This document shows positions 4,638-23,766 of a stretch of DNA of 23,996 nt, piece after piece. The DNA lies in contig JAKLKB010000159.1 in the NCBI GenBank assembly GCA_023150835.1, positions 1-23,996 of the forward strand, read 5' to 3'. The stretch is from Myxococcota bacterium (GTDB lineage Bacteria > Myxococcota_C > UBA6777). Both the position numbers and the translations under genes were made by a program. The notes under the pieces are model-generated. The model was not told where the DNA came from and searched no databases. It was given only the letters and a program-made list of their open reading frames with translations. How positions within the stretch are numbered: position 1 is the stretch's first letter; each line of letters opens with the position of its first letter.

Positions 4638-4902
4638 GCAGCGTCTGCATTTCGTGCATACAGCGTGCGTCATGAAAAAACAAAATCCCCGAGGCTTCCG
4701 ACTTTCGCTCCCTCCCCTGTTCACGGGGGAGGGCGGGGAGGGCGGGGTGGGGGGCTTTCCTCCGCTTCACCTAACGCCTATGGGGTGTCACCCCACGCCC
4801 CGCCATAGAGCGCGGCTCCCTTGACCCCGTATTGGCGGAGTGATCAGTGTTTTTCAAACAAACAGCACCACCGCTTCAAGCGGCGCGAACACGGCTTTTT
4901 TC
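4638..4902 (-). repeat. Dispersed repeat family, copy A (5' and 3' modules)
   Basis: Read on the minus strand it begins with the CCGTGTTCGCG and CTTCAAGCG motifs, has TTTGAAAAACA, then GCCAATACGGGGTC, the hairpin core (4781-4795), TAGGCGTTAGGTGAAGCGG, the C-rich stretch, the GGGGAGGG hairpin and TCATGACGCACGCTG. The half after the hairpin core matches the copy at 23847-23996 almost base for base; the half before it matches copies at 22250, 12582, 11202 and 8347. Similarity may continue left of 4638, where the other copy is cut by the window edge. Confidence 0.85.
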
Positions 4903-11668: not shown

Positions 11669-11944
11669 ATGCCAAATCGTATCAGTACCCAAAACGCCCC
11701 CAAAGTCCAACAAGTCGGCGCACAGCAAATCAAACAAAGCAACAGCCAACAGATCGGCTCCGCCCTCCAACAGATCAAAACAAACCCTTCTCTTGCACAA
11801 CAATTCTCGAACACTCTTCAACAACAAACAGGGGCTTCGAGCGCACAAGTCGGCCAAGTCTTCGGTCAAGGTCTGGCCGGAGCCGTCGCTCAATTGAGCC
11901 AATCCACCGCTGGCGCACAAGTCGGCATCGGCCTCTTGGAATAG
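11669..11944 (+). CDS. Small Gln/Ser-rich protein; possible RiPP precursor or scaffold peptide
   Basis: The product has 91 residues from the ATG at 11669, with AAGGA eight bases upstream. It has 21 Gln and 15 Ser/Thr, and no Cys, Trp, Tyr or His. The N-terminal half is repetitive and helix-prone (VGAQQIKQSNSQQIGSALQQ), the C-terminal half Gly/Ala/Ser/Gln-rich (QQQTGASSAQVGQVFGQG) and it ends AQVGIGLLE. There is no signal peptide or membrane segment. It is the first small gene upstream of the ATP-grasp/LanB/oxoamine synthase genes, which makes it the natural candidate for their peptide substrate, with Ser/Thr as possible modification sites. That is inference from position; I recognise no leader family (no Nif11, NHLP or FNLD-type motif). 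It could equally be a structural helical protein. Confidence 0.65.
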   Translation: MPNRISTQNAPKVQQVGAQQIKQSNSQQIGSALQQIKTNPSLAQQFSNTLQQQTGASSAQVGQVFGQGLAGAVAQLSQSTAGAQVGIGLLE

Positions 11945-11950
11945 CTTTCA

Positions 11951-12037
11951 TTGACGGATGGCTCGGGAGCGCCTTGTCGTTGACAGATTGTTCGCAAGCG
12001 CCTTGTCTTTCACAGATGGCTCGGAAAGGAACGCCTC
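11951..12037 (+). repeat. Three tandem imperfect 29-bp repeats
   Basis: Units start at 11951, 11980 and 12009 (TTGACGGATGG, TTGACAGATTG, TTCACAGATGG), each continuing with a CTCGG/TTCGC and, in the first two, GCGCCTTGTC. They fill the whole 96-base gap between the peptide gene and the next gene, and the third unit supplies that gene's ribosome binding site. Confidence 0.75.
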
Positions 12038-12040
12038 ATC

Positions 12041-12565
12041 ATGGATCAACCCAAAAATACAAGCCGACTGTTGGCTTTTTTTGAGCGCCAAAATGAAGAT
12101 GGGACGTACTTCTACGAAGACGAAGCCGTCCGCCATTTTTTGCCGCTGTTGGCGATGCAGATCGCGATGGAATGGGGCTCACAAGCATGGACACCCCCGA
12201 TCCAACGGCTCATGGACGAGTTTGTCGAAGGGCTTGGGCTACCAGAAGGCTTTGATGGCGCGCAGCTCAACGAAGCGGTCGAAGGTTACTACGCCAAAGC
12301 AGGTGTCGATCCTGCCCTCAAACGCGGCTTCCAAGAACTCGTGCGCGAACTGTTTGCCGACGGAAGCACCCAAGAACTCAGCGATGCTGCCGCCAAACTG
12401 CTCGGGATGGAACCTCAAACCATCCCATCTCCCGCCCCCGCCCATCCGCCCAAAGGACGTGTTGGCGTCTCCGTCGCAGGACTTCTCCTCCAACACACCG
12501 CAGCGCAAAAACGCCCCGAAGACGCTTCTTCGCCCCCTCCGCCCTCCAAAAACAAAGACGAATAG
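12041..12565 (+). CDS. Hypothetical protein of the biosynthetic locus
   Basis: The protein has 174 residues from the ATG at 12041, with AAAGGA about ten bases upstream. I do not recognise a family. Residues 1-120 are mostly helical and acidic (FFERQNEDGTYFYEDEAVRH, FLPLLAMQIAMEWGSQAW, then LMDEFVEGLGLPEGFDGAQL), with no signal peptide or membrane helix. Residues 125-174 form a low-complexity Pro/Ala/Ser/Lys tail ending in a charged KNKDE. It has no Cys. It lies 96 bases after the 91-residue peptide gene and is probably co-transcribed with it; a repeat copy separates it from the ATP-grasp gene. It could be a substrate-recognition or carrier protein for the enzymes that follow, but nothing in the sequence proves that. 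Confidence 0.7.
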   Translation: MDQPKNTSRLLAFFERQNEDGTYFYEDEAVRHFLPLLAMQIAMEWGSQAWTPPIQRLMDEFVEGLGLPEGFDGAQLNEAVEGYYAKAGVDPALKRGFQELVRELFADGSTQELSDAAAKLLGMEPQTIPSPAPAHPPKGRVGVSVAGLLLQHTAAQKRPEDASSPPPPSKNKDE

Positions 12566-12581
12566 GAGCGACGCAACAAAC

Positions 12582-12756
12582 AAAAAACCCCGTGTTCGCG
12601 ATATCTCAAGCGACAGCGTCGTTGGTGTGAAAACTCCGTGCTCACTTTGCCAACACGGGCTCAAGAGGGCGAAGCCCTCTCGCGGGGCGTGGGGCAGCGC
12701 CCCATAGGCGTTAGGTGAAGCGGAGGAAAGCCCCCCACCCCGCCCTCCCCCGTGCA
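12582..12756 (+). repeat. Dispersed repeat family, copy D (5' module and start of 3' module)
   Basis: It has ACCCCGTGTTCGCG, CTCAAGCGACAGCGTCG, GCCAACACGGGCTCA, the stem AGAGGGC-GAA-GCCCTCT, the hairpin TGGGGC-AGC-GCCCCA (12690-12704) and TAGGCGTTAGGTGAAGCGG, and fades after CCCTCCCCCGTG. It sits in the 234-base gap before the ATP-grasp gene. Confidence 0.85.
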
Positions 12757-12799
12757 AACCAACCCCGTAAGTCCGAACGAAGAAGGCTAAAAAATTTCG

Positions 12800-14170
12800 A
12801 TGAAGATCGAGCAGCTTCCCGAAGATCAAGCGTACATCGAAGCCTACGACCGCGCCCTGCGCAAGCATGGCAAAACGATGTTAGAAGAAGCCGCCGCCCT
12901 GATGGAACGCTACGCAGCACGGGGGATCACCACCATCAAAGGCGCGGGCTTTCCGCTTCGCCCCTTGTTTTTGCCACGCCGTCTCCTCGAAGATATCGGG
13001 CGCTCTTTGATCGAAGGCTTTGAACGCCTGCGGATCGCATTGCTCGATCATCTCGAAGACAGCGCATGGTTGGCAGAACACCTCCCCATCCCCCCCGCTC
13101 TGTTTCAGCACCTCAACTTCCGAGAAAGTCTGTCCAAAGAAGCCTTCTTCTCCGTACTTCGCCCTGATGGCTTCTTATTCTCCGATCGCTACGCGCTGAT
13201 CGAACCCAACTTCGGCAATGGCTCGCTGATCAGCAACGCCTACACCGAGATATTGTTTGATTATTTCCAAGGATCGACCGTGTTTCGGGAAATCGGCTGG
13301 CCTTCCACAGGACTGGATCGGCCCTTCCAACGCCTGATCGAGATGCTCCGTTCTCGCCTACCTGCGGGAAAACAACGCTACTTTGTCGCTTTGTTTTGCC
13401 ACCACTGGGAACACCAAGTCATCCAGACATGGGAAGAGCGCGTGATCCAACAGCTTTATCTCGCGCAGCAGATCTTGGCCGAGCAAGGCATCGATACAAG
13501 CGTAGTATACGAGGATGGCTTTTCCATTGATGAATCCGGCCACACCCACCTCAAAGCAGACGGACAGCGCGTCGATCTGGTGTTGCAATTCACCATCGGA
13601 ACGTCATTTATGGACGAGCCTTGGTTATTTGAAGACGCACTCGCCCACCTCACAAGCGCCAAGATCGGCGATGCTCCGTTGATCAAGCCCTTGGCCTCCT
13701 TGTGCATCGACAAAGGCACCTTGCCGCTGATGAATACTCTCGGCGGATGGCCGATCTGCGCAGAAGAAAACTTCCGCGTGGAGATCCCTTGGACGACCTA
13801 CCCCAAAGCCGAACAGGCCGCAGAATACCGCCTGAACAAAGACCGATACGTCTTAAAACGAGCCTTTGATGGCAAAGACACCCATGTCGGCATCTCTACA
13901 GCAGGGCGGCTGTGGAATCGCACTCTGGCCCAAGCCCTCGAAAGCGACGCCTACGTCTTACAACATTATCAGCCCATGCCCCAAACGATCATGCCGATGT
14001 GCTTTGATGGAGAGCATATCGAGTGGGTGCCTGTGCGCGTCGAGTTGTCGCCGTTTTTGGTAGAAGGCCGCTATGCAGGCGCGATCGCACGTTATGCGCC
14101 CGAAGCCGAAGGCTTGGTGATGTCACCCCCACCCGAAAATATGGGGCTAACCAATGTCTTCGGCACCTAA
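12800..14170 (+). CDS. Circularly permuted ATP-grasp / glutathionylspermidine synthase-like ligase (copy 1)
   Basis: The protein has 456 residues. Members of this fold use ATP to join a carboxylate to an amine or thiol through an acyl phosphate. The assignment rests on a series of segments that align in order with the gene at 22426-23766: EPNFGNGS (135-142) with ECNAGDPSG, DLVLQFTIGTSF (259-270), KPLASLCIDKGTLPLMN (296-312) with the other's INPFCTIVADYKGLLEPL, VLKRAFDGKDTHVGIS (351-366) with VLKPNEGYGGFGV (Lys for ATP and a Gly-rich loop, here diverged), VRVELSPFLVEGRYAGAIAR (412-431), and the final GLTNVFGT with VINVHQGG. The usual KPxxGxGG loop is replaced by KRAFDGKDT, so activity may differ. 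The AGAAGG upstream is 13 bases from the ATG. Its end overlaps the LanB start by 17 bases, so the two are translationally coupled. Cytosolic. Confidence 0.7.
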   Translation: MKIEQLPEDQAYIEAYDRALRKHGKTMLEEAAALMERYAARGITTIKGAGFPLRPLFLPRRLLEDIGRSLIEGFERLRIALLDHLEDSAWLAEHLPIPPALFQHLNFRESLSKEAFFSVLRPDGFLFSDRYALIEPNFGNGSLISNAYTEILFDYFQGSTVFREIGWPSTGLDRPFQRLIEMLRSRLPAGKQRYFVALFCHHWEHQVIQTWEERVIQQLYLAQQILAEQGIDTSVVYEDGFSIDESGHTHLKADGQRVDLVLQFTIGTSFMDEPWLFEDALAHLTSAKIGDAPLIKPLASLCIDKGTLPLMNTLGGWPICAEENFRVEIPWTTYPKAEQAAEYRLNKDRYVLKRAFDGKDTHVGISTAGRLWNRTLAQALESDAYVLQHYQPMPQTIMPMCFDGEHIEWVPVRVELSPFLVEGRYAGAIARYAPEAEGLVMSPPPENMGLTNVFGT

Positions 14171-16913
14171 ACCCACCCCACCAACAAATGTTCCAGCCCC
14201 CCTCCACTCAGACGAACCATCCACTGCCGATCAAACCACGCAAACCACGCTCGAACTGGCCGATGGATGGGCGTGTTGGCGACCATTTGCGTTGCGGGGT
14301 GCAGGATTTCCGCTGGATCGAGTCCTGCGCTTTGCCGATCCCAAGCTCCTCGCCGCGTTGGAGAACCACCTCACCAAAGAAACCGAACTTCGCCAAGCGT
14401 GCCTCACCCTGATCGCTGCGTGGTCAAACGGCGGAACTTCCGACGAACGCAACTCCACACGCCAACACATCAAACACACACATCGCCTCCTCGCGCAGCT
14501 TTCGACTTTTTCACATAACCACACACAAACGCCCATCCCTCCGCACTCTACACACGACGGCATACAAACGCCCATCCCTCCGCACTCTACACACGATGAC
14601 ACACAAACGCCCATCCCTCCGCACTCTACACACGATGACACACAAACGCCTGTCTCTCCGCACGCTATACATAACAACTCACAAACGCCCATCCCCTCGT
14701 TGCTGGAGGCATCGCAAGCGGTGTGTGTAGCAGAGGAGGCTTGGGAAAAAGCGCGTGTGGCTTGGGAAGCCGCTTTTGTGGAGGGTGCGCATCGAGAGCA
14801 TCGCGAACTTCAATCGCTGCTTGCACAAGGCGATCTGATGCGTGCGGTGTTGTGGCAAAATCGAGAGGCGGCGATCCACGGGCTTGGGTTGATCCCTCCG
14901 ATGGCATCGGAAGAACAGAACAAGCGCGCTCGCCAAGCAAGGCAGATCGTCCATCGTTATCTTCAACGCTACTGCACCAAAAATGACACCATCGGTTTTT
15001 TTGGTCCCGTGGGATGGGGGTTTTGGAGCGCAGGGGAGACGCATATTCTGGCGGGTTCCAAACAGATGGCGCGACAAGGCGTGTACTTTGAACCGTGGGC
15101 GATGGCGGTGTTTGCGCGCCAATGGAGTGAGTCACCGGCCTTTTTACTGGATATCCCGCCGCGTGTGCATCCGCTGTGCGCGTTGGTCGAAGGCCGACTC
15201 TTGGGCGTCCCGGGCGCAAGAGGCCGAGACAAAAGCCGCGCTCTCACCCCCCAAGAATACGCCCTGATGATGCGCTGCGATGCCCGCCGCACAGCGCGCT
15301 CGATCTTGGCGGATATCGCCCAAGACACCAGCCTTTTTGAAGACTGGAGCCAAGCCTATCAAGTGCTTTGCGATCTGGTGCGCAAGGGTTGGCTGATCTG
15401 GTCCTTGGATATGGCCTTTGAGGCTCACCCCGAACGCCGCCTGTTGGGCGTCGTCGACGCTCTGCAAGATCCGACGATCCAAGCGGCTTGTAAGAAACAG
15501 CTTACGCCGCTGCTGGAGGCTTTCGATGTCGTATCCAAAACCACCGAAGATGCGGCCTCTTTGGCCGAAGCGTTGGGAGCGTTGGAAGTTTGCTTTGTGG
15601 CCCAAAGCGGCGAGTCGGCCACACGCAACCAAGGTGCAACGTACGCAGGACGGACACTGACGTATCTTGACGGCCAAAGAGACGGTCGATGGGAGATCTC
15701 CGATACGCTGCTCGGACAGATCGCCCAGCCGCTTTCACTGATGTTGCAAAGTGCGCGTTGGTACACTTGGCGGATCGCGACGGCGTATCAAGCGCATCTA
15801 CGGGGACTTTGCGATCAGATCCTCGCGACCGAGGGCGGAAGCGACCTACCCTTGGTGCGTTTGTGGCAAGAAGCCAGCGACTGGCTCGATCCCTTTTTTC
15901 CCAAAGCGGTCGAAGAGATCGTCGAAGACTTACAACAGCGCTGGGCGACGATCCTCGACATCTCGGAATCTACGGACAAACGACGTCTCGAACGAGATCC
16001 CGCTGCATTAAAAGAAGCGGTGATGGCGGCTTTTTGGGCTCCACATCCGGGATGGCCTTGCGCTCGGCATCATGCGCCCGATCTGATGTTTGCGGCCCCT
16101 GATCTCGCAGCTTTGGAGCGCGGCGAAGGGCTGTTTGTGCTTGGAGAGCTTCACGCGGGGATCCATCCGCTGTGTACGCTTTCGATGACCACACAACACC
16201 CCGATCTGGCTTCTCTTCAAGCCCTCTACGCACAAGATATCCCCGATATCGGGATCGCTCCGATCCCTGACGTGGACTTTGCCCGATCCTGCCACGATTC
16301 GCGGCTTGCGCCTCGCGATCTGCACCTCGATATGGGCGCGCCGTGGGCGAGCTGGCGCGGTCCCGACCAAGTCCTCCCCATAGGCGCATTCTCGGTTCGC
16401 CCGTCAGGTGGGGGGATCGAGGCCACAACCCGCGATGGACAGCACCGCTTCGATATCTTGCAGATCATCGAGCGTTCTCTCAAACTACGCGCTGCTGTTC
16501 ATTTTTCTTACTTGCCTTCGTGGGCGCATCGCCCGCGCATCCAGCTAGGCCGCTTGGTGATCGCACGCGAAAGCTGGCGCATCTCCGCAGCGCAGATGGC
16601 TTTCGCACGCGAAACACAGCCAAGCAGCCGTTTTGCGGGAGCCTCTCGATGGGCAAGATCCGCCGAGATACCGCGTTTTGTCTTTGCACGCTCCCCCAAA
16701 GAAACCAAGCCGATCTACGTCGACTTCCACAGCCCCCCTTCTGTCGAGATCTTTTGCCATCTGATCCGACAAGCCGAAGACGCTGCACTACATCTAAGTG
16801 AGATGTTGCCAAGTCCCGAAGAGGCGTGGTTATCGGATGCGACGGGGCGTCGTTATGTGAGTGAAGTGCGGATGATCGCCGTCGATCCGCAAGTATGGAG
16901 GCCCCTTCCTTGA
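14154..16913 (+). CDS. Lantibiotic dehydratase (LanB)-type protein, full length
   Basis: The protein has 919 residues, close to the usual LanB length. In the family, LanB uses glutamyl-tRNA to glutamylate Ser/Thr of a precursor peptide and then eliminates glutamate to give dehydroamino acids; relatives (PEARLs) ligate an amino acid to a peptide C-terminus. Evidence is RYLQRYCTKNDTIGFFGPVG (from residue 268), which matches the conserved core of the Lant_dehydr N-terminal domain in its 'KNDTIGFFGP' version, VLGELHAGIHPL (662-673), typical of the second half of the domain, and a C-terminal RFVFARSPKETKPIYVDFHSP pattern with YVDF at 855-858. The N-terminus is Pro/Thr-rich, and residues 124-181 hold a 13-residue tandem repeat absent from what I know of the family. 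The start overlaps the ATP-grasp end and its own end overlaps the next start by 19 bases. No LanC or elimination-domain gene is seen nearby. Confidence 0.85.
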   Translation: MSSAPKPTPPTNVPAPLHSDEPSTADQTTQTTLELADGWACWRPFALRGAGFPLDRVLRFADPKLLAALENHLTKETELRQACLTLIAAWSNGGTSDERNSTRQHIKHTHRLLAQLSTFSHNHTQTPIPPHSTHDGIQTPIPPHSTHDDTQTPIPPHSTHDDTQTPVSPHAIHNNSQTPIPSLLEASQAVCVAEEAWEKARVAWEAAFVEGAHREHRELQSLLAQGDLMRAVLWQNREAAIHGLGLIPPMASEEQNKRARQARQIVHRYLQRYCTKNDTIGFFGPVGWGFWSAGETHILAGSKQMARQGVYFEPWAMAVFARQWSESPAFLLDIPPRVHPLCALVEGRLLGVPGARGRDKSRALTPQEYALMMRCDARRTARSILADIAQDTSLFEDWSQAYQVLCDLVRKGWLIWSLDMAFEAHPERRLLGVVDALQDPTIQAACKKQLTPLLEAFDVVSKTTEDAASLAEALGALEVCFVAQSGESATRNQGATYAGRTLTYLDGQRDGRWEISDTLLGQIAQPLSLMLQSARWYTWRIATAYQAHLRGLCDQILATEGGSDLPLVRLWQEASDWLDPFFPKAVEEIVEDLQQRWATILDISESTDKRRLERDPAALKEAVMAAFWAPHPGWPCARHHAPDLMFAAPDLAALERGEGLFVLGELHAGIHPLCTLSMTTQHPDLASLQALYAQDIPDIGIAPIPDVDFARSCHDSRLAPRDLHLDMGAPWASWRGPDQVLPIGAFSVRPSGGGIEATTRDGQHRFDILQIIERSLKLRAAVHFSYLPSWAHRPRIQLGRLVIARESWRISAAQMAFARETQPSSRFAGASRWARSAEIPRFVFARSPKETKPIYVDFHSPPSVEIFCHLIRQAEDAALHLSEMLPSPEEAWLSDATGRRYVSEVRMIAVDPQVWRPLP
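14523..14696 (+). repeat. 39-bp tandem repeats inside the LanB gene
   Basis: Four 39-base units start at 14523, 14562, 14601 and 14640, with a partial fifth at 14679. They encode TQTPIPPHSTHDD-like 13-residue units (LanB residues 124-181). The first three are nearly identical and the fourth is diverged (TQTPVSPHAIHNN). The frame is kept, so array length may vary between strains. Confidence 0.9.
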
Positions 16914-18316
16914 CACAAGATCCCCAATCCACCAAGTCGCGACAACATGCCGCAACACAAGATCCCAAACCCGCCAAGTCGCTACGAAACACCGCTGCAA
17001 TGGTCGGTCGCGCCGTACCGATCCTCGATCAAGCCGTTTCTGCCGGCCTCATGCACGTCACGCTCCAAGATCGCGCCAACAAGCGCGTCCGCCTCGACGA
17101 TGGCCGCGTCGTCACCGAGTTTATCAACTGCTCTTATCTCGGGCTGGATCTGCATCCTGCGGTGCTCGCTGGCGCAAAACAGGTCTTGGATGACTGGGGA
17201 ATTCATCTCTGCTGTGCGCGTTCGCGCTTTTCCATCGGCCCCAATGCTCTTCTCGAAGACGGTCTCTCCGCTCTGTTTCGTGGACGAGCGATCACCTTCC
17301 CATCCGTCACAAGTACGCACATGTCGGTGCTTCCGTTGCTTGCGAGTGGTGTGCTCTTGGACGATCGCCATCCGCGCCCGATGCGTGTGATCTTCGATCG
17401 CTTTGCGCACGCTTCGATGCAGTACCTCAAACCGATCTTGGCCGAAGAAGCGCAAGTTTGCACCATCCCACACAACGACCTCGACGCTCTGCGCAGCCAA
17501 GTCCAAGAAGCCCATGCTTGCGGGCAACGCGCCGTCTATCTCGCGGATGGCGTCTACTCAATGGGCGGCATGTGTCCTGTCACCGACCTGATCGCGATGG
17601 CCCAAGAACTCGACTTTGCGCTCTACATCGACGACGCACACGGAACTTCCATCTTTGGCGAACAAGGCGAAGGCTACGTCCTCAGCCAGATCCAAGGCCC
17701 GCTCCCTGAACAAGTCTTTGTGTGCTTTTCTCTCGCCAAGGGCTTTGGCTGCAATGGCGGTGGCATCGTCCTTCCCAACACACGCACCGAACGCTTGATC
17801 CGCCAGTTCGGACAAACCTACAACTTCTCCGCCCCCCTCGATTTTTCTCTAATCGGCGGGGCGCTCGCGGCCTTGGAACTCCACCGCAACGGAGAAGTCC
17901 GACGCCTACAAACTCAACTCGACCGACAGATCGCCCTTTTTGTGTACGGTGAAGCCCAACAACCCACCCCTCCGCTCGTATCAGCAACCTCAAGTCACCT
18001 CATCCTCCCAAACACCCGAAACCACGACGTGATGGTGCCTTTCTTGACATGGAACGAACATGATCGACCGATCGACGGTCGCCTTGGACCGATTCGGATG
18101 GTCTTTGTCGGCGAAGAAGCCCGTGGCATCGACTGGGGACAAAAGCTGATCGAACGGGGCTATTTTGTCTCAGCAGCTTTTTTCCCCGTCGTTCCGCGAG
18201 GTCGCTCACAACTGCGTATCGCCATCACAGCAGGCCACGACCGCCAACAGATCTTGGGCCTTCGTGATGCCCTCCGCGATATCGCCGAAGCATCCGGTGT
18301 GTTGTCTGTTGCCTAG
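16895..18316 (+). CDS. Alpha-oxoamine synthase-type PLP enzyme (AONS/KBL/SPT-like)
   Basis: The protein has 473 residues. The family condenses an amino acid with an acyl thioester and loses CO2 to give an alpha-amino ketone, as in biotin (BioF), sphingolipid (SPT) and CAI-1 autoinducer synthesis. Landmarks are in order: FINCSYLGLDLHP (76-88), the RFSIGP and L..GRAITFPS regions, DGVYSMGGMCP (218-228; relatives usually have an acidic residue where this has Gly-Gly), DDAHG (246-250, Asp for the PLP nitrogen and His stacking), FSLAKGFGCNGG with PLP-binding Lys282, and a C-terminal domain with RIAITAGHD (441-449). An N-terminal tail of about 35 residues is extra; the Met at residue 36 (17000) is an alternative start, but the 16895 ATG overlaps the LanB stop and suggests coupling. 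It is not near biotin or sphingolipid genes, so a role in the LanB pathway is inferred. Confidence 0.85.
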   Translation: MEAPSLTQDPQSTKSRQHAATQDPKPAKSLRNTAAMVGRAVPILDQAVSAGLMHVTLQDRANKRVRLDDGRVVTEFINCSYLGLDLHPAVLAGAKQVLDDWGIHLCCARSRFSIGPNALLEDGLSALFRGRAITFPSVTSTHMSVLPLLASGVLLDDRHPRPMRVIFDRFAHASMQYLKPILAEEAQVCTIPHNDLDALRSQVQEAHACGQRAVYLADGVYSMGGMCPVTDLIAMAQELDFALYIDDAHGTSIFGEQGEGYVLSQIQGPLPEQVFVCFSLAKGFGCNGGGIVLPNTRTERLIRQFGQTYNFSAPLDFSLIGGALAALELHRNGEVRRLQTQLDRQIALFVYGEAQQPTPPLVSATSSHLILPNTRNHDVMVPFLTWNEHDRPIDGRLGPIRMVFVGEEARGIDWGQKLIERGYFVSAAFFPVVPRGRSQLRIAITAGHDRQQILGLRDALRDIAEASGVLSVA

Positions 18317-18843: not shown

Positions 18844-20088
18844 TTATTTTTTGTTCATAACAACAATATATTCATTATTTATCGTTGTTGCAGTTTTTCC
18901 CGTTTCGTTTGTTGGACTGTTTTTTCGAGGCATTCTTTTATTTGGAATATTTCTAATGAAAGTATATTTGTGTTCAAATTCAAATTGTTCAAAAATAGAT
19001 TTTGTAAATTCATCTGTCAAAAGTGTTATGTCTTTTACTCTTCTGTTTCCAACGACGTAGCAAGCATATCCTCCTCTTTTTATAACATTTGCAACGTTAG
19101 AAATAGATTTTATATAATCAACATAAAAACTATATACTTCTCTTGCCCTTTTCTCATCAATAGAGGCTATTTGTTGGATAGTAGCATCCAACAATTGAAA
19201 GCCTGTTGGGAAGATCTCTTTTGGGGCACCTCCCATCAATCGACTATCCAAGTTGTCGGCCTCTTCAAAGCCTAGCCATTGGCTAGATAAGCGTGAAAAC
19301 TGGCCGTAAGCAACGGTTGTTTTGCTGTCTCCGTAAGGGGGAGATGTGACAACTAAGTCTACGGACTCATCTTCGAGCGTTACTTCTTGAGAAGAATCAA
19401 ATTCAAACACGTACACTTGACTATTGAACGAATTTGTTTTTTTTAGAAAACTTTCAAGACCTTTTTTGTTGCGATTCACTTTAGAAAGAAGCATGGAGAA
19501 CACATCAGGCTTGAATTTTTTTACTTGTTCTTCTGTCATTCGATATAATTTGAATTCGCCATTTCTTGTTAGACTACTTTCTCTTACAGTTTCACTAAAA
19601 GCGATGAGGAAAAAATCTTTTATTCTATTATTTTCTATTGTATCAATAAATTGCTTTATGATCGCGAGTTCTGAAATCGTCTGAGGAAGAAACCAGTAAT
19701 CAATATTTTTGAATTGAGGTATGTTTTGAGGATAGCAAATTTTCCCAAAATTTACACTCAGCAGATAATTGTGAAGTGATTGTACGTAAGCTTCCAGCTC
19801 TTTTACACAGAGCTTTGATGTTTTTGTTTTTGCTATAAGTCGTGCGAGTGGGTTTAGATCTGAACCAAAAGCATTGATTCCACAAAGGTTCGCTTCAACC
19901 AAAGAAGTTCCTGTTCCGCAGTAAGGATCAAAAAGAGACTTTGCACCTTTTCCATATTCTCGAATCAACCGCTCTGCAATTTGTGGAATCATCATCGCTG
20001 GATAATTATGGAAGCAATGTGTGTCTCTCTTTACATTTTCCGTTTGAAAATCCCAAGAATAATCGTTTTCTTTTCTTAATGTCATCAT
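18844..20088 (-). CDS. DNA methyltransferase of the restriction-modification operon (probably N4-cytosine)
   Basis: The protein has 414 residues and should methylate the site cut by the partner nuclease. HNYPAMMIPQIAERLI (27-42) and LFDPYCGTGTSLVEA (52-66) form the AdoMet-binding region (motif I, D-P-x-x-G-x-G-T), and TSPPYGDSKTTVAYGQFSR (248-266) has the catalytic SPPY, typical of N4-cytosine enzymes though also used by some N6-adenine ones. Motif I precedes the catalytic motif by about 190 residues, leaving a variable region that may read the target. The start is at the first of two Met codons (20088); GAGG in the end of the nuclease gene is the ribosome binding site, and the stop of that gene is 3 bases upstream. 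Base composition is much richer in A and T than the flanking genes. It pairs with the MvaI/BcnI-like nuclease, whose known relatives cut CCNGG-type sites. Confidence 0.88.
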   Translation of the reverse strand: MMTLRKENDYSWDFQTENVKRDTHCFHNYPAMMIPQIAERLIREYGKGAKSLFDPYCGTGTSLVEANLCGINAFGSDLNPLARLIAKTKTSKLCVKELEAYVQSLHNYLLSVNFGKICYPQNIPQFKNIDYWFLPQTISELAIIKQFIDTIENNRIKDFFLIAFSETVRESSLTRNGEFKLYRMTEEQVKKFKPDVFSMLLSKVNRNKKGLESFLKKTNSFNSQVYVFEFDSSQEVTLEDESVDLVVTSPPYGDSKTTVAYGQFSRLSSQWLGFEEADNLDSRLMGGAPKEIFPTGFQLLDATIQQIASIDEKRAREVYSFYVDYIKSISNVANVIKRGGYACYVVGNRRVKDITLLTDEFTKSIFEQFEFEHKYTFIRNIPNKRMPRKNSPTNETGKTATTINNEYIVVMNKK

Positions 20089-20091
20089 TTA

Positions 20092-20772
20092 TTACAAGTC
20101 CTCGATTTTTTTGAATAGTAGGTGGAGTTTGTCTTCAAAAATTCTAAAACCTGTACCATGATTTCTTGCTCTCGTGCCTTTATCATGAAGCCTTAAATCT
20201 ACAAGTAAGTTTCCTGTTTTAAATAAATCAGAAAGCAAATCGGAGGATGTTTCTCTCATTATCTGGGCTCTGTAAAATTGGAAATATTCTACACCAGCCC
20301 TTTCCTCTACGTGTGCGGATACAAAAATTAACGCAGGAATTTTCTTTGCAAATCTTTCTGCAATTGTGGCAATTTGCCACGTTGCGATAATCTCTCCAGA
20401 TATGTGTTGTACAGCGATTTCATGTTGAGATACGGTCAAAAAGAGTCCCGCACTATTTGGAGATAAAGACATCGTGTAATACATTCCCAATCTGCCATTT
20501 TGGTCGAAACTTCCGTATTTTTTTATTGCCGTTAAAGGATTAATTTTCCAACATTTTTTATTAAACGTAAATAAAGTGATCATACTATTCGAATGATCCC
20601 GATGAGCTTTAATCTCAATGCCTTTTATATCGGGCAGTGCTAGGTTGTTTTCTCTCAATCCAATCAACATTTCAAAAGTATAACCAACACCTGTTGGGCC
20701 TTTTCTTAGGGATTTTACGAATCCTTTGGATTTTAGCAATTGAAATTCTGTTGTCAACTCGTCTAGTGTCAT
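20092..20772 (-). CDS. MvaI/BcnI-family type II restriction endonuclease
   Basis: The protein has 226 residues from the ATG at 20772. GPTGVGYTFEMLIG (25-38), LPDIKGIEIKAHR (46-58) and NHGTGFRI (204-211) match the MvaI/BcnI family. Asp48, Glu53 and Lys55 give the D-x4-E-x-K catalytic centre described for MvaI. Members of the family are small monomeric nucleases cutting CC(A/T)GG or CC(C/G)GG; which applies here cannot be read from sequence. A longer frame to a GTG at 20838 exists, but a near-perfect promoter overlaps it (the GTG is in its spacer), and the chosen ATG has GGGGT seven bases upstream. It is the first gene of a two-gene operon with the methyltransferase 3 bases downstream. It is AT-rich and probably transferred. 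Confidence 0.88.
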   Translation of the reverse strand: MTLDELTTEFQLLKSKGFVKSLRKGPTGVGYTFEMLIGLRENNLALPDIKGIEIKAHRDHSNSMITLFTFNKKCWKINPLTAIKKYGSFDQNGRLGMYYTMSLSPNSAGLFLTVSQHEIAVQHISGEIIATWQIATIAERFAKKIPALIFVSAHVEERAGVEYFQFYRAQIMRETSSDLLSDLFKTGNLLVDLRLHDKGTRARNHGTGFRIFEDKLHLLFKKIEDL

Positions 20773-20826
20773 TTGAGTACCCCGAATAAGTGTTAATTTG
20801 ATATCGAGAAACGATTGCAACGAGCT

Positions 20827-20855
20827 TATATAACGCACAATCGATTCTATGTCAA
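20827..20855 (-). promoter_or_regulatory. Sigma-70-type promoter of the restriction-modification operon
   Basis: On the minus strand, TTGACA (20855-20850) and TATATA (20832-20827) are separated by exactly 17 bases. Transcription would start near 20820, about 48 bases before the ATG at 20772. This site decides the start of the nuclease. The consensus form is unlike the rest of the window and fits imported DNA. Confidence 0.7.
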
Positions 20856-20865
20856 GAGTGTCATT

Positions 20866-20970
20866 TTAAATAAAGCCCATAGATTCAAAGAAATCCATAT
20901 TTACATCATAGTAAGGCAAATTTTTTCTCCCATTGATAGATGTATAAGATGGAGACTTTTTTGTTGTAGA
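20866..20970 (-). pseudogene. Possible C-terminal gene fragment cut by the IS element
   Basis: An open frame ending at 20866 with TAA runs into the IS end at 20970 and encodes about 34 residues (TTKKSPSYTSINGRKNLPYY then DVNMDFFESMGFI). It has no start of its own and has the AT-rich codon use of the island. It could be the tail of a gene lost when the IS inserted, or chance. Confidence 0.3.
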
Positions 20971-20985
20971 CTCGCTACATGACAG
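20971..20985. repeat. IS left terminal inverted repeat
   Basis: Exact complement of 22179-22193. The transposase stop codon lies inside it. Confidence 0.9.
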
Positions 20986-22042
20986 GCCAATGACGAGCGA
21001 GCGAAGCATCGGAAAGAACGAAGTGTTTTGGAGGTTCAAACATGACAAGAAAATGTCCTCCATTTTTGAGCTGCCTCTCTAACCAAGAAAGTCCAAGCCG
21101 AAACAAGCTCTTATCTTGTCGTCGAAGGCTTCGATCTACTTGATCCACTTTTCTTTCTATCACGACTTGAAGCCCCAAATAGACCATCCACAAATAACTC
21201 AGACAACAGAGCATAAGAAGACGACTTAATCTCTCTGGGCAAGACAAATGGCTCTTGTCAATTCCAAATCCCCTACTTTTTTGATCGCTAAAAAAGGTTT
21301 CAATGATGAATCGTTTTCGATACCAATTCAATGACTTGTGTGCATCTGGCAAGGTGGACAACAAATACCAAGGCTGTTTTTCTTTTGGCTTCCAATGAGC
21401 GATGGCATGAAGTGGGCCGAAAGCCTGTGCTGTGACATTGGCATCGCAAACAGAGAGCGTCTGGCCTTGAGCCACGGGCAAAGCGTGTTGGATTTGCTGT
21501 ACGTTGTCGCCTTGGTGAAGCAACGTGTTTTTGGCGGTACGCACAACGAAGTCCCAACCACATTCTTCCGACAGATAACGCAAAAAAGAGACATTATCGT
21601 ACTCACCGTCGCCGAGCAAAATAACATCCTGCCTGCTCCCAAGAAGTTCTTTCGCGTGCTTTGCGAAGGCAACGTGCTTGTCTGCGCTCCGATGACCTTT
21701 TCCTCCTTGCTCAACCTGCCAGAGCAAGGGCAAAAGGCGTCCTTTGTAAAGGATACCAAGCATCAAGACAACGCATCCACGGCCAATCTCACTGACATCA
21801 AGGGCAAGCGGGAGTCGTATCCCCTCAAATGCCCGAAGCAGTGATTGAATGAATGGAAGCATGAGCGTTTTCGGCTCGGCATCGGAGGCAATGAAACGTT
21901 GAAAGCGCCGATGGGTACTTTCTGTTTTGGCATTGGAAGGGGCGGCCTGCGCAAGTTGCGTAAGGTGGCATCGGCCTTTCCTCACGAGAGCAGAGATCAT
22001 CAAAGACATCGTGACGACACGACTCTGAGAAGTCGTTGTCAA
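20975..22042 (-). CDS. IS4-family DDE transposase (main frame)
   Basis: The frame is 355 codons from a TTG at 22042. Asp82 (LDVSEIG), Asp145 (LLGDGEYDN) and Glu248 form the DDE triad; Glu248 is in a perfect IS4 YREK signature (Tyr241, Arg244, Glu248, Lys255 in YRKRFIIETFFSDQK). The N-terminal part (VVTMSLMISALVRKGRCHLT) resembles the IS4 DNA-binding region. The frame has no ATG with a ribosome binding site at its start. A strong AAGGAG and ATG lie upstream at 22097 in another frame (MSDAKRLYTKVQDTQAEDFD), so the complete protein probably needs a +1 frameshift or the gene carries a frameshift mutation near 22030-22050. It may therefore be inactive. Confidence 0.88.
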   Translation of the reverse strand: MTTTSQSRVVTMSLMISALVRKGRCHLTQLAQAAPSNAKTESTHRRFQRFIASDAEPKTLMLPFIQSLLRAFEGIRLPLALDVSEIGRGCVVLMLGILYKGRLLPLLWQVEQGGKGHRSADKHVAFAKHAKELLGSRQDVILLGDGEYDNVSFLRYLSEECGWDFVVRTAKNTLLHQGDNVQQIQHALPVAQGQTLSVCDANVTAQAFGPLHAIAHWKPKEKQPWYLLSTLPDAHKSLNWYRKRFIIETFFSDQKSRGFGIDKSHLSCPERLSRLLMLCCLSYLWMVYLGLQVVIERKVDQVDRSLRRQDKSLFRLGLSWLERQLKNGGHFLVMFEPPKHFVLSDASLARHWPVM

Positions 22043-22425: not shown

Positions 22426-23766
22426 CTATGTCGACGAAGAGACGAACACGACAGGCAAGAGAGCGCCACCTTGGTGGACGTTGATCACGCTTGAATCAGA
22501 GATACGCGCAAAACAGCCGACAAATCGGGACTTGTGAACCCACGCGCTGAGAGTGACGTTCTTTTCGACCACCTGTGCCCGCCCTTGGGCGTCTTGCATC
22601 ACAAAACGACCCCGTGAGGCTGGCCATGCACGTTGCGCGACATAAGAAAAAGGTCGCATCACAGCCTCTTGGAGGGTTTGTTCCCAGATATCGGCGCTGC
22701 ATACGCGTCCGAGGATCACCCCAAAACCACCGTATCCTTCGTTGGGTTTGAGTACCCATTCGCTGCGCTGCTCGCGAAGCAAAGACAGCAGATCGACTTC
22801 TCGATCTTCGTACAAGACTTTTTCTTCACGCACCACAAAAGTCCACGGCATACACTCGCGCAACACAGCGCGCACTTCTTGCGGCAAGGACTCCTGATAA
22901 TGAGGCGAGCTCAACGGCTCCAACAGCCCCTTGTAATCGGCCACGATGGTGCAAAAAGGATTGATCAGCTTGACCGCTCCTGCACGATATGCGTCAAACA
23001 ACGGGCGCGTGGCAGGCCAATATCCCTCCAACAACAGCTCGTCGATGGTGTCGCGGATCACCCCGTCGATCGGGCGTTCTTCGGACCACAGGCGCTTTCC
23101 ATCCCATCGCAACGAACGCGGGTCAGCAAGCGTGATCGACAAGCCCCGCGCCTTGAGTCCTTCCACGATCAAGCGATGCTCGTCATGCACCAACGAAGCC
23201 GCATCGCTTAGCTGTACCCACGCAGCAGGCGGAGCAAGCGTTGCGTTCACAAGCCCTGCATACGCATCAAGCAAGATATCTTCGTGGATATCCCCCATGC
23301 ACCGAAGTTTTTGCATCGCTGGAAGCAAGCGCATCGCCGCAAGAAAAGCATCCGTGAACCCCGCCCCCGAAGGATCACCCGCGTTGCACTCCATCACTCG
23401 AAACACGCCCGCTTTGTCGTCCCAAAAACCGTCAAATCGCGCACAAAACATCGCCTGTTCCCGCTCCGCATCCAGTCGCGCAACCTCCCATGCTTCGGGG
23501 CGCATCGAGATCATCCACGCAGCAAGCCTCCCCCTCAAGATATCTTGAACCGCTCGATCAAAAGCCTCGGCCAACGCTTCGACTTGGGCTTGGAGAGCCG
23601 AACGGATCCCGAACGGCAACAGCAATGGCTGCGGAAGTGTCGGGATCTTCACACCCAAACGCCGCATCGCCTCTTGCATCGGCACAAAGTGCGCGTCTGG
23701 CTCCTCGCAAAGCGTCCGAAGATACGCTTGTTGCCATGCGTTCCTTTCTGTCACCTCCTCTCGCAT
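22426..23766 (-). CDS. Glutathionylspermidine synthase-like ATP-grasp ligase (copy 2)
   Basis: The protein has 446 residues from the ATG at 23766, chosen for a perfect AAGGAGG five bases upstream; the longer frame runs into repeat F. The fold is that of glutathionylspermidine synthase C-terminal domains and circularly permuted ATP-grasps: RVMECNAGDPSG (123-134), a Rossmann-like middle part (AWVQLSDAASLVHDEHRLIV, then LADPRSLRW), INPFCTIVADYKGLLEPL (268-285), VLKPNEGYGGFGV (338-350) with the ATP-binding Lys and Gly-rich loop intact, and VEKNVTLSAWV to RISDSSVINVHQGG (400-434). It aligns segment by segment with the protein at 12800-14170 but keeps a more standard nucleotide loop. No amidase domain is present. 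It is convergent with the biosynthetic trio and separated from it by the imported island. Substrate unknown; cytosolic. Confidence 0.75.
   Translation of the reverse strand: MREEVTERNAWQQAYLRTLCEEPDAHFVPMQEAMRRLGVKIPTLPQPLLLPFGIRSALQAQVEALAEAFDRAVQDILRGRLAAWMISMRPEAWEVARLDAEREQAMFCARFDGFWDDKAGVFRVMECNAGDPSGAGFTDAFLAAMRLLPAMQKLRCMGDIHEDILLDAYAGLVNATLAPPAAWVQLSDAASLVHDEHRLIVEGLKARGLSITLADPRSLRWDGKRLWSEERPIDGVIRDTIDELLLEGYWPATRPLFDAYRAGAVKLINPFCTIVADYKGLLEPLSSPHYQESLPQEVRAVLRECMPWTFVVREEKVLYEDREVDLLSLLREQRSEWVLKPNEGYGGFGVILGRVCSADIWEQTLQEAVMRPFSYVAQRAWPASRGRFVMQDAQGRAQVVEKNVTLSAWVHKSRFVGCFARISDSSVINVHQGGALLPVVFVSSST

Follow-up and report, generated by a model that had tools for sequence, protein, structure and literature searches.

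A recurrent Myxococcota locus that combines a PEARL-type ligase, an alpha-oxoamine synthase and two permuted ATP-grasps with a small peptide ending in [LV]E: a possible carrier-peptide pathway

The stretch of DNA analysed here (the window; 23,996 nucleotides) is the entire contig C103 of G000, the 7.56-Mb draft genome of a Myxococcota bacterium. On its plus strand lie the gene of a 91-residue peptide (11669-11944), an open reading frame of 174 residues (u174; 12041-12565) and three genes that encode an ATP-grasp ligase (ATP-grasp 1; 12800-14170), a LanB-like protein of 919 residues (14154-16913) and a PLP-dependent enzyme (16895-18316), each overlapping its neighbour, by 17 and 19 bases, respectively. 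The gene of a second ATP-grasp ligase (ATP-grasp 2; 22426-23766) is on the minus strand, and its product matches Pfam CP_ATPgrasp_2 (1.9e-9). The original prediction, made from the sequence alone, had described all of these genes, and their positions were confirmed. u174 has no Pfam match; its initial ~100 residues are also found in another locus (L045), between the peptide gene and ATP-grasp 1 (43% identity over 102 residues). No Rfam family and no tRNA was detected in the window, which also yielded neither a peptidase nor an exporter.

In the window genome, ATP-grasp 2 is separated from the other pathway genes by a low-GC, minus-strand insertion (18844-22042) which, judging from Pfam matches, carries a DNA methyltransferase, an MvaI/BcnI-type restriction enzyme and a DDE transposase. 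The nearest relative, a sister species of the same genus (Myxococcota bacterium isolate KLAP109; G001, loci L010/L044), has the same genes in the same order and lacks the insertion at this place: its ATP-grasp 2 and PLP genes converge, and a 145-residue reading frame is all that lies between them. The restriction-modification/transposase insertion is outside the pathway. Its restriction-modification genes were the only match when the window was searched against a defence library. A dispersed repeat of ~175 bp lies at ~12580-12755, between u174 and ATP-grasp 1, and again at 4735-4901; it has at least 43 matches genome-wide, several of them close to contig ends. In G001 the copy between u174 and ATP-grasp 1 is absent, and the two genes are 5 bp apart.

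The LanB-like protein had been read as a full-length LanB, which proved incorrect. It does belong to the LanB-related families, its one Pfam match being to PF04738 (1.1e-24), but this is the glutamylation domain, and the elimination domain is not part of the protein. No PF14028 elimination domain was found in G000 or G001 either, and it is absent from nine of the ten other genomes that carry the system, the tenth having it in a separate frame of 1260 residues. The length of the protein has two sources: its N-terminus is extended, and it has a low-confidence insert of ~55 residues made of tandem repeats. This insert (residues ~121-181) consists of tandem QTPIPPHSTHDD units, is predicted to be disordered and differs between the window species and G001; a resembling repeat occurs in another reading frame of the window genome (G000 C157:39526-39711). 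The structural model (pLDDT 85.5) agrees along its whole length with TbtB, a protein that has the glutamylation domain only (Z 25.5, rmsd 4.8, 709 residues), whereas full-length LanBs match it over their N-terminal part only.

A requirement for ATP distinguishes peptide aminoacyl-tRNA ligases (PEARLs) from LanBs. Functional residues of PEARLs have been published for BhaBC-Trp and TglB (PMC11962472). All nine of those positions, matched by numbering, identity and spacing rather than through a reference alignment, correspond to residues of the window protein (R48, Y269, R272, D643, E665, R805, F844, E904 and R906), which vary little or not at all in a set of 32 sequences. The published roles of the matched residues suggest ATP-dependent phosphorylation and binding of the tRNA CCA end. 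Since the nine positions match and are almost invariant, we assign the LanB-like protein, on residues and predicted fold, as a putative PEARL-type ligase and not a dehydratase.

The PLP enzyme matches PRK07505 (7e-116) and the BioF/KBL families of alpha-oxoamine synthases, and its PLP lysine (Lys282), His249, Asp247 and His172 are invariant in five members; it is an alpha-oxoamine synthase with an intact active site. In such enzymes the PLP adduct forms on a free amino group. Consequently, the product would have to be joined to anything else afterwards, which offers a reason for the presence of extra ligases. The nearest solved relative, Alb29 of the albogrisin pathway (PDB 8XHA), is distant and has a different set of partner genes; it condenses L-Glu with acyl-CoAs (PMC11906848). 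Rhizobial relatives were considered as a lead and dropped, their neighbours being regulators and transport genes and no PEARLs. Those relatives, on three rhizobial plasmids (L041-L043; 37-38% identity), directly follow a response-regulator or winged-helix gene and have an ABC transporter operon nearby, a context that could hint at the synthesis of a signal.

ATP-grasp 1 has no Pfam match, and a sequence search of the PDB returned nothing for it. Its assignment to the permuted type was nevertheless upheld by a profile-profile match to ATP-grasp 2, in which the two align over most of their length (hhalign 99.4%), and by its predicted fold. The model is of moderate quality (pLDDT 65, pTM 0.71) and matches glutathione synthetase, YgiC, YjfC, glutathionylspermidine synthetase and Cp1B, with Z of 15-16 compared with no more than 7 for ATP-grasps of other kinds. 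ATP-grasp 2 matches 3N6X by profile. Families of the GSS/GspS/YgiC type join a carboxylate to an amine at the expense of ATP, several of them at the C-terminus of a peptide. In Cp1B, mutation has established that the residues of an R-x-D and an E-x-N motif are required (PMC12568646). The same motif is present in ATP-grasp 1 (R121-x-D123, E135-x-N137), where it is invariant among the members covering the region, and in ATP-grasp 2 (R110-x-D112, E126-x-N128), where two members have E-x-Q. Both proteins thus resemble permuted glutathione/glutathionylspermidine synthetases with the catalytic motif kept, and share fold and motif with the YgiC/YjfC peptidyl-polyamine synthetases, GspS, glutathione synthetase and Cp1B; they differ from those systems in their partner genes and, for ATP-grasp 1, in a sequence too divergent for Pfam. 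More distant ATP-grasp homologues (24-30% identity) were set aside because their neighbours are unrelated, and a search of plasmids with ATP-grasp 1 gave no match.

When named bacterial and archaeal genomes were scanned for the PEARL, 79 loci spread over many phyla were obtained. The detailed examination covered only G001's locus, five further loci of myxobacterial type and an unclassified contig; ATP-grasp 1 was found in L044, L045, L046, L066, L084 and L086 and in none of the rest. Among 195 Myxococcota genomes, a profile search recovered ATP-grasp 1 in 11, ten of which also encode the oxoamine synthase, the eleventh genome being highly fragmented; a second search of 383 genomes, an overlapping set, added none. 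With the window genome, G001 and the genome of L066, this makes 14 genomes, mostly myxobacterial, and the actual distribution is probably wider than the named genomes scanned. Whether the homologues are neighbours elsewhere had been put forward as one test of the original prediction, which it passed: the four enzyme genes occur together in nine loci, namely the window, G001 and L137-L143. One of these copies, L143, looks decayed, since it has a stop in the PLP frame and a split ATP-grasp 2. In L066 the peptide, ATP-grasp 1 and the PEARL are present, with no oxoamine synthase or ATP-grasp 2 within 20 kb. The arrangement is not constant: peptide, u174, ATP-grasp 1, PEARL and PLP gene with a convergent ATP-grasp 2, as against PLP gene, ATP-grasp 2, peptide, ATP-grasp 1 and PEARL. 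As the gene order differs, the association exceeds what shared descent of a single arrangement would give. The 12 PEARLs of these loci that were placed on the tree group together in a single clade (SH-aLRT 99). The original prediction also stated that there is no protease; this stands for the window and fails in one myxobacterial clade (L138-L142), where an M28 peptidase directly follows the PEARL in the members examined.

Other PEARL loci have features of their own. In sister PEARL loci of other Myxococcota, different small proteins (L075:15848-16081 and L052:12167-12544, both plus strand) have in common a DV-x-EVLERKISP end region and are perhaps another class of PEARL carrier. On two Streptomyces plasmids (L027, L028), paired PEARL-like genes accompany an MbtH protein, an adenylation enzyme, a PLP enzyme, an acyl carrier protein and a phosphopantetheinyl transferase, next to a LanM gene; this is apparently a carrier-protein PEARL cluster of a kind common in Streptomyces. 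Another unusual PEARL cluster is that of L029 (NZ_CP108679.1), in which a PEARL-like gene adjoins a methylaspartate mutase pair, an acyl carrier protein, an AMP-binding protein, an ATP-grasp and a condensation-domain protein.

The peptide gene of the window is preceded by an AAGGA ribosome-binding site and differs from that of G001 at 12 synonymous and no nonsynonymous sites (dN 0, dS 0.22); the peptide is under strong purifying selection. An identical protein despite 12 synonymous changes indicates that the gene is translated and constrained. Small reading frames with a ribosome-binding site were listed from the gap that immediately precedes ATP-grasp 1 (or u174), and the C-terminus was left free. 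Every locus with a sizeable gap, L138 excepted, has one credible candidate. The candidates end in GIGLLE (window and G001), PGRPLE, PGSEPLE, GRKPVE, PGKPLE, GKKPVE and PGKPVE, so that all seven distinct peptides, from eight loci including the window, end in Glu and have the form [LV]E. By comparison, this end was found in two of 164 other proteins from the same and neighbouring loci (smoothed rate 0.018), and six independent occurrences by chance would have a probability of ~3e-11. The motif was first seen in four loci and checked in the remainder later, which makes the last three a cleaner test than the others. The peptides, of 46-123 residues, are mostly dissimilar in sequence, L125 and L137 being the one pair that is alike; several have W-x-P and a Pro/Lys-rich stretch, and the composition of the window peptide is unlike that of the Pro/Lys-rich ones. 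Six of the seven, that of the window among them, have no Cys. In the five genomes of the clade L138-L142, which have kept the enzymes, no such peptide was found in cis: the only conserved small frames there are part of ATP-grasp 1, an upstream protein ending in DDDAPF and a pair of short frames with Ala or Arg as the last residue. A search with the pattern W-x-P...P[LV]E regained three known peptides and gave no clear carrier in this clade. Scaffolds of PEARLs are recognised through their C-termini and have been likened to amino-group carriers loaded on a C-terminal Glu (PMC9303977).

On balance, we lean slightly towards a pearlin-like system in which a carrier peptide ending in [LV]E, with its cargo held by an amide bond, serves to make an amide that contains an amino ketone. 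The small ribosomal peptide would be the amide-linked carrier. The PEARL would phosphorylate a carboxylate, most simply that of the C-terminal Glu or of a group already attached there, and couple it to the amino acid that an aminoacyl-tRNA brings. An alpha-amino ketone would come from the oxoamine synthase, by condensation of a free amino acid and an acyl thioester with loss of CO2, and the two GspS/YgiC-like ATP-grasps would form the remaining amide bonds, linking the amine of the amino ketone to the carrier-bound chain, after which a peptidase would free the product. Both proposals of the original prediction have a place here. That of a scaffold peptide which is extended and then frees a small molecule has the better support, because the enzyme is of the PEARL type and the peptides have a common [LV]E end; that of an amino ketone would be chemically apt, given the intact oxoamine synthase. 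Several points count against this reading: the clade without a peptide, the divergent composition of the window peptide, the incomplete L066 locus, the lack of a peptidase or exporter in the window, the other PEARLs of the wider family that need no carrier peptide (PMC11212132), and the matching of PEARL residues by published numbering.

The missing peptides of L138-L142 speak for a pathway without any carrier, in which the amino ketone is joined to amino acids in solution by three stand-alone ligases and the peptide genes are accessory. Enzymes that would allow this are known: PEARLs of the wider family act without a carrier peptide and occur in small-molecule clusters that have no such carrier, SnaE extending a nonribosomal product (PMC11212132), and Cp1B joins small molecules (PMC12568646); moreover, wider relatives of the PEARL described here are found in carrier-protein clusters of Streptomyces. 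Such a pathway would not explain why seven distinct peptides in the same place all end in [LV]E, nor the purifying selection on the window peptide, and we regard it as unlikely, yet as carrying real weight since a clade of five genomes has no peptide that could be found. A combined route, in which the C-terminal Glu of the peptide is loaded by the GspS-like ATP-grasps, much as LysX loads amino-group carriers, and extended by the PEARL, with an amino ketone from the oxoamine synthase assembled and released on it, seems to us equally doubtful; if true, it would unite two known strategies of amide-linked carriage in an assembly line of three ligases that uses no thiol.

The peptide itself could also be the final product instead of a recycled carrier: a RiPP bearing a ketone or amide at its C-terminus, for instance a bacteriocin or an inhibitor of proteases. 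The authors of the pearlin work consider this alternative, too, for the pathways they describe (PMC9303977), the window peptide has a Gly/Ala-rich, bacteriocin-like terminal stretch, and the window lacks a releasing peptidase. A product of this kind is difficult to reconcile with peptides that range from 46 to 123 residues and share no core except the last residues, and with the absence of an exporter or leader-cleaving protease beside them; we consider it improbable. A class I lanthipeptide-type modification, in which the LanB-like enzyme glutamylates Ser/Thr of a Ser/Gln-rich peptide for dehydration, would fit the PF04738 match, the presence of Ser and Thr in the window peptide and the fact that the best fold match, TbtB, is the glutamylation protein of a split LanB. 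With PF14028 missing from the window genome, the sister species and nine of the ten other genomes, the residues by which PEARLs phosphorylate with ATP conserved, Cys lacking in the window peptide and Ser/Thr very scarce in several of the peptides, we think this very improbable indeed.

The carrier-peptide reading places the locus closest to the pearlin pathways for 3-thiaglutamate (tgl), 3-thiahomoleucine (tmo) and ammosamide (amm). In these, as in the eight loci here that have a peptide, a PEARL-type enzyme adjoins a small peptide gene, the peptide is conserved mainly at its C-terminus and other enzymes presumably act on the added group. The locus differs in having an oxoamine synthase and two GspS-like ligases in place of TglHI, radical SAM or flavin enzymes, peptides that end in [LV]E and not in PLALA, and, in the window, no dedicated protease. 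We therefore view the system as a variant of the pearlin kind; peptide extension being putative, it is not classed as a proven member. Clusters of the SnaE type, such as that of threopeptin (PMC11212132), likewise contain single-domain ligases annotated as LanB, and Streptomyces relatives of the locus PEARL occur in such clusters; the present locus has a peptide gene and lacks genes for an NRPS, a PKS, adenylation or a thiol carrier. With the amino-group carriers LysW and Vzb22 and their LysX-type ATP-grasps it shares a small peptide ending in Glu, ATP-grasp ligases and, as proposed here, an intermediate held by an amide bond. In contrast to LysW and Vzb22, its peptides have no Cys-rich, zinc-binding globular domain, its ATP-grasps are of the permuted GSS/GspS type and not LysX/RimK, and a PEARL is added. 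Thus, the small peptide may work like an AmCP, though we do not class it as one.

Each of the enzyme types, PEARLs, oxoamine synthases and permuted ATP-grasps, is already known by itself. A search of the literature, confined to open-access papers, found no pathway that combines the three. Few PEARL pathways have been characterised, and in those the added residue is altered by oxidation, thiol chemistry or methylation. The gene set described here would bring to a peptide carrier the formation of a C-C bond by decarboxylation and two further amide ligases. A small reading frame with an [LV]E end directly upstream of an ATP-grasp gene provides a sequence handle for carriers missed by annotation, and the gene set, being small and expressible, would be useful for finding a new class of myxobacterial compounds.
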